In this document: positions 48,994-54,236 of the stretch, piece by piece
Layout: the number at the start of each line of letters is the position of its first letter
How positions within the stretch are numbered: position 1 is the stretch's first letter
Source of the DNA: Erysipelotrichaceae bacterium
Lineage (GTDB): Bacteria; Bacillota_I; Bacilli_A; Erysipelotrichales; Erysipelotrichaceae
Direction of reading: 5' to 3'
NCBI GenBank assembly: GCA_030528645.1
Contig: JAUMYM010000001.1
Coordinates: 122,257-186,256, forward strand
DNA: 64,000 bases
Program-made: the position numbers and the translations under genes
The notes under the pieces: model-generated
Databases searched by the model: none
Told to the model about the DNA's origin: nothing
Seen by the model: the letters and a program-made list of their open reading frames with translations, nothing else

Positions 48994-49024
48994 AAAAAAA
49001 GATAAGCTAACAAACTTATCTTTT
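48994..49024 (-). terminator. Terminator of the hflX-cysK-isochorismatase operon
   Basis: A 10-bp stem (AAAAGATAAG with CTTATCTTTT, loop of 8) is followed on the minus strand by a T-run. Confidence 0.8.
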
Positions 49025-49685
49025 ATACGATTTCTTTTACTACCATCACACCATTATTGATCATACTATGCACAAACATCACATTGTATAAATCACTATC
49101 ATGCCCAACAGCATCAAACGTATCGATAACATTCAATGGTACAATGACTCTTGCTTGTCGTTTGATTTGATTTAAATACGTTACCAATGTTAAGGCAAAT
49201 TGATAAATACAAATATCCGTACAATCTCCCGTTACAATAAACGTATCGACTTCTGAATTGACCAATTCTAATGGATTCTTGGCATGAAATCCATTGGTTG
49301 ACTCTTTCCCGATCACTTGATGTAAATATGGCTTAATTTCATCGACAACTTTTGACTCTTCCTCTTCCTTTAGACAATGAATCGGATACGACTTAAACTC
49401 TAAAGCATCTTTACTATGACTATCTGTATAGGCAAACATCTTAATGCCTACTTGTTGAGCCTTTTTAAATAACGTTACGGTATCTTCAATTAAATCATAA
49501 ATACGTGGACTACACATTGCACCCTCTTTTGCAAAGCCATTATTTAAATCCACCGAAAAAATAACGGTCTTATTCGCATTAAACGAACTTAATTGTAATA
49601 CTTCCAACTTATCTAAGGCATCATACATACTTGATAAAGAAGCCAATGCCTTTGTTTCAAACTCTTGTTTACTCACTAATTTCAT
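49023..49685 (-). CDS. Isochorismatase-fold cysteine hydrolase (nicotinamidase-like)
   Basis: The roughly 220-residue protein has the cysteine hydrolase triad: Asp in VDLNNGF (near residue 45), Lys in GKESTNGF (near 135) and the nucleophilic Cys in GDCTDICIY (near 164). It also has an N-terminal extension of about 35 residues. Nicotinamidases (PncA) convert nicotinamide to nicotinate, but this fold includes other amidases. I start at 49685, where GGAGAG precedes MKLVSKQEF; the TTG 12 bases earlier is less likely. It follows cysK by one base, the last gene of that operon. Confidence 0.85.
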   Translation of the reverse strand: MKLVSKQEFETKALASLSSMYDALDKLEVLQLSSFNANKTVIFSVDLNNGFAKEGAMCSPRIYDLIEDTVTLFKKAQQVGIKMFAYTDSHSKDALEFKSYPIHCLKEEEESKVVDEIKPYLHQVIGKESTNGFHAKNPLELVNSEVDTFIVTGDCTDICIYQFALTLVTYLNQIKRQARVIVPLNVIDTFDAVGHDSDLYNVMFVHSMINNGVMVVKEIV

Positions 49686-49686
49686 A

Positions 49687-50610
49687 TTACTCTCCAAATA
49701 ATACTGTACTTAAATAGCGCTCAGCTGTATCAGGTAATAATACCACAATGTCTTTGTCTTTGAATTCTTCTTGTAGTGCCAACTGAATTCCAGCTTCTAA
49801 AGCCGCTCCGGATGAGATACCAGCCATAATGCCCTCTGTTTGCATTAACTGCTTACTACGAGAAATCGCCTGTTCACTACTTACTTGTATAATATCATCA
49901 ATAAGCTCCTTTTTCAAAACTTCCGGCACAAATCCTGCACCAATTCCTTGAATTTTATGCGGACCAGGTTGCTTTCCACTTAAAACCGCTGACTCTACAG
50001 GCTCTACTGCATAAATCTTTACGTCACTCTTTTTTGACTTTAAATAACTTCCTACTCCAGTAATGGTTCCACCGGTTCCAACTCCTGCCACAAAAACATC
50101 TACACTAGGTAAATCATTTAAAATTTCAATCCCGGTATGCAATAAATGTGCCTTTGGATTTGAAGGATTTTCAAACTGTAACATCATCTTCGCGTTCTGA
50201 TCTTCTTTTAAAATCTCTTGCGCCTTAGCAATTGCACCCTTCATACCTAAACTACCATCGGTTAGAACTAATGCTGCCCCATAGCCCTTGATTAACTTTT
50301 GACGCTCAATAGACATCGTCGATGGCATAACAATTGTTAACTTCAATCCAAATGCCGATGCAACCATCGCCAAACCAACACCTGTATTTCCACTTGTTGC
50401 CTCTACTAAATGCGTTGTTTCATTGATTTCTTTCTTATCTAAGGCATCTTTAATCATTTGATACGCGATGCGATCTTTTACAGAACCCCCCGGATTAAAC
50501 GCCTCTACTTTTACATATACATTACCTTTTAACTGTAATTGTTCTTTCAAACGATTCAGTTTAATTAAGGGTGTTAACCCTATAGTCTCTACAACATTTT
50601 GATATAACAT
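49687..50610 (-). CDS. cysK: Cysteine synthase (O-acetylserine sulfhydrylase)
   Basis: The 307-residue PLP enzyme makes L-cysteine from O-acetylserine and sulphide. It has the PLP Lys in GGSVKDRIAYQM (near residue 43), the substrate loop VEATSGNTGVGLA, the glycine-rich phosphate cradle VGTGGTITGVG, and the C-terminal ISSGAA segment. Length is normal. It follows hflX by 12 bases. The transcript begins with a short Cys-rich leader ORF, and cysE, which makes the substrate, is transcribed divergently. Confidence 0.96.
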   Translation of the reverse strand: MLYQNVVETIGLTPLIKLNRLKEQLQLKGNVYVKVEAFNPGGSVKDRIAYQMIKDALDKKEINETTHLVEATSGNTGVGLAMVASAFGLKLTIVMPSTMSIERQKLIKGYGAALVLTDGSLGMKGAIAKAQEILKEDQNAKMMLQFENPSNPKAHLLHTGIEILNDLPSVDVFVAGVGTGGTITGVGSYLKSKKSDVKIYAVEPVESAVLSGKQPGPHKIQGIGAGFVPEVLKKELIDDIIQVSSEQAISRSKQLMQTEGIMAGISSGAALEAGIQLALQEEFKDKDIVVLLPDTAERYLSTVLFGE

Positions 50611-50622
50611 TCTTCTTCCTCC

Positions 50623-51891
50623 TTAATGATATTCTTGATGTATATTCTCTTCTTTACAACGATAAGGATACAAGCCCTTTACCACTTGAAAACTCCCTGA
50701 AACATGATACTGAATGCCATCTTCCTTTTCCGCAAGCTTTACAATTCTACACACCTTACGATAAAACTGAAGAATACTTAACTCTTTATACGGAATCAAA
50801 CACTCAAAATCAAACTCATTGGGATAAAGGATCTTAGACACTTGATCCAATAACGCATCAATCCCTTGTTGATACATGGCAGAGATACATAAACCATCAA
50901 ACAAAGATGCATCTTTTACTAAATCCATTTTGTTATAAACATGAATTATTGGAATATGATCTGCCTGAATTTGTCTTAATGTCTCCATGGTTACCTCTCT
51001 TTGTAATTCCAACTGACTATTACTAGCATCCATGACATGAATCAACACATCGGCATCACACGCTGCCTTTAACGTCGATTGAAACGCCTCAATCAACAAA
51101 TGTGGTAAATTTGAAACAAAACCAACCGTATCAAACAACAATGCCTCTTGATGATGCCCTAATTGAATGTTACGCACTGTAGTATCCAATGTGGCAAACA
51201 ACATATCCTTTTGAAACACCATCTTTTCCTTTGGACGTTGATCTTTCTTTAAAATCGCATTCATCAAACTCGACTTTCCGGCATTGGTATACCCCACTAA
51301 CGCAATCTTCTTCAATGGATTACGCTTACGAGATTGCTCCTGCAATGCTTGATGCTTCTTCAAAGCTTGAAGCTGTTTCTTTAAATCGGTAAGTTGAAAA
51401 CGAATATTACGCTTTACTAACTCCAAACGACTTTCTCCGGCACCTTTGTTATTGGCACTACCACCACGTTGATTTCCAACATCATACTCCTGTTTTAAAA
51501 TCCTTGGCAAACTATATTTAATCCGTGCCATTTCTGTTTGAAGCTTCGCTATCTTTGTCTTAGCACGTGAAGAAAAAATATCTAAAATTAAATTGGTACG
51601 ATCAATAACCGGACACTGGCACTCTTGTTGAATACGCTCTAATTGCACAATCGATAACTCATTATAGAAAATAATGCAATCTACTTCTAATTCTCTTGCC
51701 CTATCTGCAAGTTCCATTAACTTTCCATAACGAAAAACACTCTTTGGATCCAGGCTACGTCCTTTTTGTATCATCACATCTATTACATCTATATGATTTG
51801 CCTTTGCCAACTGAATGCACTCTTCGATATATTGTTGAAATTCTACATCATATTTTGATAGGTTAAATCCCGCTAAAATTGCTTTTCTCAT
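50623..51891 (-). CDS. hflX: GTPase HflX
   Basis: The 422-residue GTPase has the HflX N-terminal domain (DPKSVFRYGKLMELADRARELEVDCIIFYNELSIVQLERIQ) and a G domain with G1 GYTNAGKSS, G3 DTVGF and G4 NKMD. HflX splits stalled or hibernating ribosomes during stress. It sits between the Cys-rich leader ORF and cysK. The start ATG (51891) has AAGGG ahead. Its place in a cysteine operon is unusual, and may link translation rescue to cysteine supply. Confidence 0.95.
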   Translation of the reverse strand: MRKAILAGFNLSKYDVEFQQYIEECIQLAKANHIDVIDVMIQKGRSLDPKSVFRYGKLMELADRARELEVDCIIFYNELSIVQLERIQQECQCPVIDRTNLILDIFSSRAKTKIAKLQTEMARIKYSLPRILKQEYDVGNQRGGSANNKGAGESRLELVKRNIRFQLTDLKKQLQALKKHQALQEQSRKRNPLKKIALVGYTNAGKSSLMNAILKKDQRPKEKMVFQKDMLFATLDTTVRNIQLGHHQEALLFDTVGFVSNLPHLLIEAFQSTLKAACDADVLIHVMDASNSQLELQREVTMETLRQIQADHIPIIHVYNKMDLVKDASLFDGLCISAMYQQGIDALLDQVSKILYPNEFDFECLIPYKELSILQFYRKVCRIVKLAEKEDGIQYHVSGSFQVVKGLYPYRCKEENIHQEYH

Positions 51892-51907
51892 TTCATCATT
51901 CCCTTCT

Positions 51908-51951
51908 ATAAGAAAGTAATGACTTAAAACTTCTAAGACACTCTTTCTTAT
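51908..51951 (-). promoter_or_regulatory. Leader hairpin between the Cys ORF and hflX
   Basis: ATAAGAAAG pairs with CTTTCTTAT (9 bp) across a 26-base loop. The 3' arm ends two bases before the AAGGG of hflX. No T-run follows, so if it acts it would affect translation rather than termination. Confidence 0.45.
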
Positions 51952-51954
51952 TTA

Positions 51955-51984
51955 TTATTTACGTCCTAGACAACAACAGCTCAT
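51955..51984 (-). CDS. Cys-rich leader peptide MSCCCLGRK upstream of hflX-cysK
   Basis: The nine-codon ORF encodes MSCCCLGRK, with three consecutive Cys codons (all TGT), and is not among long ORFs. Its Shine-Dalgarno GGAGG lies seven bases before the ATG, and a strong promoter (TTGCAT-N17-TATAAT) puts the predicted start of transcription about 19 bases further upstream. It is in the leader of hflX-cysK and opposite cysE. Runs of the regulated amino acid in a short leader ORF are the hallmark of attenuation, so I infer a cysteine-sensing leader. Translation of the peptide is not proven. Confidence 0.65.
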   Translation of the reverse strand: MSCCCLGRK

Positions 51985-52009
51985 GATCTAACCTCCATTC
52001 AATAAAATA

Positions 52010-52038
52010 ATTATATTTTTATTTTATAGGTAATGCAA
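52010..52038 (-). promoter_or_regulatory. Promoter of the leader-hflX-cysK operon
   Basis: On the minus strand TTGCAT (52033-52038) and TATAAT (52010-52015) are spaced exactly 17 bases apart. Transcription would start near 52003. Confidence 0.75.
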
Positions 52039-52141
52039 ATACTTTGACTAAATCAACTGGTCTTTTCTTTAAAATATAAAAGAAATATAGTAAAATGTAA
52101 GTACTGGAAGTCTTCTCTACCGCAAATTTTAATAGATAGTG

Positions 52142-52147
52142 TATAAT
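52142..52147 (+). promoter_or_regulatory. -10 element of cysE
   Basis: TATAAT lies 26 bases before the cysE ATG. The -35 region is weak (ACCGCA), so activation or another control is possible. Confidence 0.5.
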
Positions 52148-52172
52148 GATAGAATAAATTTGAGGTAAGTTT

Positions 52173-52709
52173 ATGTTTAAAGATTTAAAAGCACAAATTA
52201 AACACATTAAAGAAAGTGATCCTGCCGCAAGCAGTATCTTTGAAATTCTTTTCTTATATCCATCCATACATGCCATAGGCTTTTATCGTCTTGCCCATGT
52301 ACTCTATAAGATCAAACTAAAATTTCTAGCACGCATGATTTCTCAATTGGCTCGTTTTCTAACAGGCATTGAAATCCATCCGGGTGCTCAAATTGGCATT
52401 GGATTATTCATTGACCATGGTATGGGCGTTGTTATTGGAGAAACCGCAATTATTAAAGACTATGTCAAACTTTATCACAATGTAACCTTAGGAGGCGTAA
52501 AACCAACCCATGGTAAACGTCATCCAACGATTGAAGATCACGTCGTCATTGGTACAGGTGCTAAAGTTTTAGGCAACATTACCGTTGGAAAACACGCTCG
52601 CATTGGAGCCAATGCCGTGGTCTTAAAAGATGTTCCGGAACACTGCACAGCCGTTGGTATTCCGGCACGCTTAGTCTGTGAAACAAACCAAGATTGGATT
52701 GCAAAATAA
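52173..52709 (+). CDS. cysE: Serine O-acetyltransferase
   Basis: The 178-residue enzyme acetylates serine for cysteine synthesis. It is a left-handed beta helix with hexapeptide repeats ([38 protein letters not shown]) and the catalytic His in FIDHG plus HNVTLGG. The length is short for the family, as is usual in Firmicutes. A GAGGTAAG Shine-Dalgarno precedes the ATG. It is divergent from hflX-cysK, so the intergenic region controls both steps. Confidence 0.95.
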
Positions 52710-53888: not shown

Positions 53889-53930
53889 CACATCAATGAT
53901 ATGCGTGTATAGTTTCATTGATGTGTTTTT
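53889..53930 (+). promoter_or_regulatory. Terminator-like hairpin in the csp 5' leader
   Basis: An 11-bp perfect stem (CACATCAATGA with TCATTGATGTG, loop of 15) is followed directly by TTTTT, exactly as in a rho-independent terminator, but it lies inside the csp leader. It may attenuate transcription or act as a temperature-sensitive structure. Confidence 0.65.
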
Positions 53931-53962
53931 ATTAGGTCGTACAATGGTTATGGAGGAAGTAG

Positions 53963-54163
53963 ATGAGCACAGGTAAAGTAAAATGGTTCAATCCTGAAAA
54001 AGGATATGGCTTCATTACTGCTGAAGACGGACAAGATGTATTCGTACACTATTCAGCAATTAACACTGAAGGTTTCAAATCTTTAGATGAAGGCCAAGCT
54101 GTATCATTTGATGTAACAGAAGGTTCACGTGGACCACAAGCTACAAATGTTACAAAACTATAA
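53963..54163 (+). CDS. Cold-shock protein, CspA family
   Basis: The 66-residue protein is a single OB-fold cold-shock domain: [30 protein letters not shown] has both RNA-binding motifs (RNP1 KGYGFI, RNP2 VFVHYSA). It binds single-stranded RNA and DNA and acts as an RNA chaperone. Strong GGAGGAAG Shine-Dalgarno. The gene has its own promoter, a structured leader and a terminator after it. Such leaders often give temperature control. Confidence 0.96.
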
Positions 54164-54204
54164 TAGCACTCAGGTATTGTCATACAAGTAATAAAGCTAT
54201 TAAG

Positions 54205-54236
54205 AAAGAAGAAGAGAAACCTCTTCTTCTTTTTTG
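54205..54236 (+). terminator. Terminator of the cold-shock gene
   Basis: A 12-bp stem (AAAGAAGAAGAG with CTCTTCTTCTTT, loop AAAC) is followed by a T-run. Confidence 0.85.

Follow-up and report, generated by a model that had tools for sequence, protein, structure and literature searches.

A candidate cysteine-responsive translational attenuator ahead of hflX-cysK in an Erysipelotrichaceae genome

The window analyzed here, a 64-kb stretch of DNA (64,000 nucleotides) from an Erysipelotrichaceae genome of 1.38 Mb that is 97.5% complete, carries a cluster of cysteine genes and a very short, cysteine-rich open reading frame (ORF). The first gene of the operon under study is hflX, encoding a ribosome-splitting GTPase (minus strand, 50623..51891, start ATG at 51891; TIGR03156, 350 bits), and the genome has no second copy of it. 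It is followed after 12 nt by cysK, encoding cysteine synthase A (minus strand, 49687..50610; TIGR01139, 419 bits). A gene for an isochorismatase-fold hydrolase (minus strand, 49023..49697; PF00857) overlaps the end of cysK and is probably the third gene of the operon. The serine O-acetyltransferase gene cysE (plus strand, 52173..52709; NF041874/TIGR01172) is divergent and lies outside leader control. The curated models confirm the gene order given in the original prediction, with hflX and cysK downstream of the leader and cysE pointing the other way.

The leader region lies between cysE and hflX and is read on the minus strand. Its promoter consists of a -35 element, TTGCAT (52038-52033), a 17-nt spacer, and a -10 element, TATAAT (52015-52010); a promoter scan scored the overlapping version TTTGCA-N18-TATAAT at 10/12. 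The Shine-Dalgarno (SD) sequence GGAGG (51996-51992) precedes the leader ORF (51984-51955), whose codons, ATG AGC TGT TGT TGT CTA GGA CGT AAA TAA, specify the peptide MSCCCLGRK with three consecutive TGT codons. The leader stop codon is separated from the hflX ATG by 63 nt, largely occupied by a hairpin. Promoter, SD, and nine-codon ORF thus stand in the order originally described, and only 1 of 20,000 dinucleotide shuffles of the cysE-hflX intergenic region yields an SD-preceded ORF with a run of three cysteines (CCC). MSCCCLGRK is likewise the sole SD-preceded short CCC ORF within the 64-kb window. Across the genome there are 103 strings of the form ATG...TGYTGYTGY, at least some of which are out-of-frame readings within other genes, and among the matches listed 12 further short ORFs with CCC in frame with an ATG all lacked an SD. 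Judged from their sequences, the CCC mini-ORFs checked offered no sign of a Cys-leader regulon elsewhere in this genome.

Directly after the leader stop codon, the RNA is predicted to fold into a hairpin (51951-51908, minus strand) that we call the anti-sequestor. Its 9-bp outer helix pairs AUAAGAAAG (51951-51943) with CUUUCUUAU (51916-51908), and helices of 4 and 6 bp extend it. The whole structure has an energy of -15.8 kcal/mol and directly abuts the hflX SD, AGAAGGGA (51907-51900, minus strand). The 9-bp hairpin of the original prediction is therefore real, its energy being matched in only 5/2000 shuffles, but it is larger than described (9+4+6 bp) and ends directly before the hflX SD. A second hairpin, the sequestor, has the form UCAUUaCUUUCU-UAU-AGAAGGgAAUGA (51922-51896, minus strand; -7.6 kcal/mol alone) and pairs the hflX SD itself, with CUUUCU opposite AGAAGG of the SD and UCAUU opposite AAUGA beside the start codon. 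The two hairpins are mutually exclusive, as the CUUUCU stretch is common to both.

The effect of a translating ribosome was modeled by representing it as an unpaired footprint on the leader RNA and reading out the unpaired probability of the hflX SD core. When any of the three UGU codons occupied the ribosomal A site, the anti-sequestor formed and the SD core was free (mean, 0.95). When the stop codon did so, the footprint covered the base of the anti-sequestor, the sequestor formed, and the SD core was closed (0.21). The observed stalled-minus-stop difference of +0.74 was reached by none of 300 shuffles of the stop-to-SD stretch, for which the mean was -0.07. Exposure was greater in the stalled than in the stop position whichever of three footprint sizes or five 3' ends was used; the contrast was small with a 40-nt 3' extension. 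Without a ribosome on the leader, the SD was already partly closed, at 0.29 to 0.63 unpaired depending on the 3' end. In the model, then, the leader has the mutually exclusive, ribosome-position-dependent RNA structures by which an amino acid attenuator is recognized, and its sequence provides the apparently translatable ORF with a codon run for the amino acid made by the operon (cysK). The original claim that the leader responds to cysteine through stalled ribosomes gains support from this modeled contrast between stalled and terminating ribosomes.

Other modes of control were considered for the same region. The leader contains no intrinsic terminator, which a classical transcription attenuator of the trp/his type would have, and this supports the original preference for translational control over termination. 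Rho-dependent attenuation was rejected, since the genome, at 97.5% completeness, gave only sub-threshold matches to the Rho model (45.9 bits; cut-off, 509). With neither Rho in the genome nor a terminator in the leader, versions based on transcription termination are unlikely at hflX-cysK. A Cys T-box was likewise rejected, as no T-box occurs at the hflX-cysK locus. The genome has 12 T-boxes, all on other contigs, and the seven for which the next gene was read precede tRNA synthetase genes; these, named by sequence, are ileS, valS, argS, serS, leuS, alaS, and trpS-like genes. Apparently, this organism uses T-boxes for synthetases and a leader peptide for hflX-cysK. The window leader had no Rfam match apart from a sub-threshold microRNA model, taken as chance. 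Elsewhere in the window, a cspA thermoregulator model matched at 53895-54235 (plus strand) over a cold-shock protein gene, at a sub-threshold 48.7 bits (cut-off, 78), and this match probably reflects coding similarity.

Cysteine-rich leaders proved to be common before cysK across the family. In 106 cysK loci of the family, the 350 nt upstream were scanned for SD-preceded short ORFs. A run of two cysteines was found at 31 loci, compared with a mean of 0.88 and a maximum of 3 in dinucleotide shuffles, and a run of three or more was found at 19 loci from 8 genera (shuffles: mean, 0.02; maximum, 1). Runs of three of any other amino acid occurred at no more than 3 of the 106 loci. Examples of the Cys-leader peptides are MKQFRNTCCCCMCNNTRICRLGLF, MMNYNVKPCCCCCCSNDCTRNSH, MFENIKHNMVCCCCCCICHSPDGSPGSF, MCCKIWYRCCQPLVETPTFFTVENVKN, and VTIRQMCCCWCMCTR. 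An intrinsic terminator follows the Cys leader at 22 of 30 cysK loci, and most of these 22 also have, immediately behind the Cys codons, a segment that is complementary to the terminator's 5' arm and could act as an antiterminator. The terminator alone is not specific, because 23 of 76 cysK loci without a Cys leader pass the identical test. Leaders of this terminator type, with covarying arms, lie upstream of cysK at L102, L122, L133, L171, L174, L176, L184, L189, and other loci. For covariation, three 7-nt segments were extracted by hand from each of 15 leaders of the CCGG type. Standard pairs made up 91% of the antiterminator and 97% of the terminator, with both-side changes in 3/7 and 4/7 pairs, respectively. 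Covariation in both helices exceeded all 500 shuffles, a comparison in which related species count repeatedly, so that the values are not probabilities. In L184 all three segments have changed together (CCTGGAT / ATCCAGG / CCTGGAT).

Genus g37 (L134, L144, L145, L148, and L156) has a second design unrelated to the CCGG type, in which the terminator reads ACTAAGG...CCTTAGTTTTTT. Three of these leaders (L144, L148, and L156) also carry a stretch, CCACCTTT, that is complementary to the leader's own SD. An Rfam scan of 20 relatives' cysK loci, including both designs, returned no family matches, and the terminator-type Cys leaders before cysK may merit description as a new RNA family. Six other terminator-less leaders of the family showed no consistent effect in the SD-switch test. 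In genus g27 (L163 and L178), leaders ending ...SMTCCC(S/P)DR lie some 280 nt ahead of cysK, and the stretch separating leader and gene is long and structured.

The leader before hflX has a much narrower distribution. A Cys-codon ORF before hflX-cysK, which the original prediction proposed to look for in related genomes, is present in congener G037, the only one compared, and thus in two species, but is absent from the sister genus g18, which has the same order of hflX-cysK and divergent cysE with a short intergenic region lacking the leader. G037 has the identical leader ORF and retains its SD; its anti-sequestor differs by one A-to-G change in the 5' arm that keeps the pair as G-U, and its modeled SD core is 0.93 unpaired with a stalled ribosome versus 0.21 with a ribosome at the stop. 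Because the two species share about 97% identity over the entire intergenic region, this conservation is weak evidence and no independent test. A search of 196 family genomes with the leader DNA found only short chance matches beyond the genome itself and G037, and no leader was seen before hflX in the other family genera read.

Outside the family, Cys leaders were found at none of 18 cysK loci from another family of the same order, and other families of the class gave one doubtful case among 20. These sequence surveys suggest that Cys leaders before cysK occur mainly in one family. Among the matches listed, the best named one for CysK is from Traorella (Erysipelotrichaceae), which points to a member of Bacillota resembling Erysipelotrichales. 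Of 80 cysK loci sampled broadly from the matches listed, among which the genome studied here was absent, at least three had convincing leaders: L209, L219, and L233. The L219 peptide is identical to that of the family genome G148. L233, from [Clostridium] aerotolerans, and L209, from a Bacilli metagenome-assembled genome, have Cys-run leaders (MKYNTNVISNRIYFNNKCCCQAVCMESDTVLL; MERKIARTNLSLTCACCCCGSFSYLQE) upstream of cysK, each followed by a hairpin.

The interpretation is supported by two independent computations, the SD switch and the family-wide occurrence of Cys leaders before cysK. On the basis of the modeling, we consider it likely that the leader is a cysteine-responsive translational attenuator of hflX-cysK. 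The hflX-cysK transcript would start just upstream of the leader ORF with its three UGU codons, which we infer to be transcribed and translated. With ample Cys-tRNA(Cys), the ribosome would get to the leader stop codon, where its footprint would mask the 5' arm of the anti-sequestor; the freed CUUUCU would then pair with AGAAGG of the hflX SD, and hflX translation would be low. Under Cys-tRNA(Cys) shortage, it would stall on UGU codons 3 to 5, the anti-sequestor would form and keep CUUUCU in its 3' arm, and the hflX SD would stay free, raising hflX translation. Expression of cysK and the third gene would presumably rise along with that of hflX by coupling or mRNA protection. The model thus predicts that hflX-cysK is on in low cysteine, with the output on translation; cysteine shortage would be the signal. 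The window leader may be the translational counterpart, moved before hflX, of the terminator-type Cys leaders that stand directly before cysK in relatives. It is possible, though on balance doubtful, that HflX, as a housekeeping ribosome-splitting GTPase, is itself under amino acid starvation control through a leader peptide, such that ribosomes starved of Cys-tRNA(Cys) induce a ribosome-splitting factor together with a cysteine enzyme in a rescue-and-resupply operon.

Several other explanations can be offered for the same features. The leader might work by mRNA stability or translational coupling, with a stalled ribosome shielding the 5' end from nucleases, and not by SD sequestration. Several family Cys leaders have neither a terminator nor a predicted SD switch, so that for these a simpler mode is present or has to be assumed; in the window, however, the stop-to-SD stretch appears fitted to a switch in which the ribosome governs SD exposure (0/300 shuffles), and we consider this mode unlikely. 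The position of hflX raises a further question, namely, whether the leader senses antibiotics or stalling in general ahead of an HflX-type resistance gene, with ribosomes stalled by macrolides or lincosamides opening the hflX SD as in rli80. Listeria hflXr is indeed controlled by a 14-amino-acid leader ORF and alternative RNA structures (PMC6310831), and a stall anywhere on the first leader codons should likewise open the switch modeled here. Yet MSCCCLGRK lacks the RLR motif expected of a macrolide-sensing HflXr-type leader, the operon carries cysK with cysE next door, and the family's Cys-run leaders precede cysK without hflX. The single hflX of this genome is, moreover, more likely a housekeeping copy. 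An antibiotic-sensing role is quite improbable on this evidence.

Chance could also have placed the ORF next to an unrelated hairpin, and the restriction of the leader at hflX to one genus would fit such an origin. The results of the shuffles (1/20,000, 5/2000, and 0/300) and the family-wide pattern both oppose it, leaving it very improbable. Finally, the cell might produce MSCCCLGRK for the peptide itself, as a small binder of metals or thiols, since a run of cysteines could bind metal. What the family leaders have in common, however, is their Cys runs, position, and downstream RNA structures, not the flanking peptide sequence, and we give such a function hardly any credence.

In Bacillota, control of cysteine genes is usually ascribed to CymR-type repressors, T-boxes, or SAM riboswitches. 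If the interpretation is correct, the Cys-codon leader attenuators would add a further RNA mode for cysteine in this phylum. Terminator-type and SD-sequestering versions at the same gene in related genera would represent one sensing principle with two outputs and offer a natural comparison, and the version in the window would tie a ribosome-rescue GTPase to an amino acid signal. Searches of mainly open-access papers turned up no description of Cys-leader attenuators in Bacillota. As modeled, the window leader belongs with the amino acid leader-peptide attenuators and would be new in being cysteine specific, SD sequestering, in Bacillota, and followed first by hflX.

Cys-run leaders without terminators have been described for actinobacterial cys operons (PMC1262725), which bears out the original statement that such ORFs are reported upstream of actinobacterial sulfur genes. 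Polycysteine leader ORFs of mycobacteria are reported to be cysteine responsive (Canestrari et al. 2020, cited in PMC9094748 and PMC13236596). These leaders share with the window leader a short Cys-run ORF before sulfur or cysteine genes, no terminator, and a proposed action on translation. The mycobacterial ORFs are reported to be leaderless, whereas the window ORF, in Bacillota, has an SD, a defined SD-sequestering switch, and hflX as the first gene; the Rho-based mode suggested there for mycobacterial cys genes is ruled out at the window locus by the absence of Rho. Within Bacillota, His-leader attenuators are known from Erysipelotrichales, Peptostreptococcaceae, and the Bacillus cereus group (PMC9413887) and from bacillar hisS/hisZ (PMC2965389). 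They represent classical leader-peptide attenuation with the same build as the relatives' terminator-type Cys leaders, but they sense histidine, whereas the window leader would sense cysteine and has no terminator.

The original prediction called HflX unexpected as the first controlled gene. It does lead the operon; however, there is a precedent in Listeria monocytogenes hflXr, where the RLR leader rli80 senses lincomycin and erythromycin (PMC6310831). At both loci, a gene of the hflX family is preceded by a leader ORF and by alternative RNA structures, but rli80-hflXr combines an antibiotic-sensing RLR peptide with a transcription terminator, whereas the window leader combines Cys codons with SD sequestration. 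In ermC-type translational attenuation, which PMC2965389 mentions, stalling of a ribosome on the leader makes one hairpin replace another and so exposes the SD of the following gene. The window leader would likewise expose the downstream SD in this way upon stalling, with the shortage of an aminoacyl-tRNA, not a drug, as its signal, and, unlike in ermC-type systems, it is a ribosome at the stop codon, and not the free RNA alone, that is predicted to favor the closed form.
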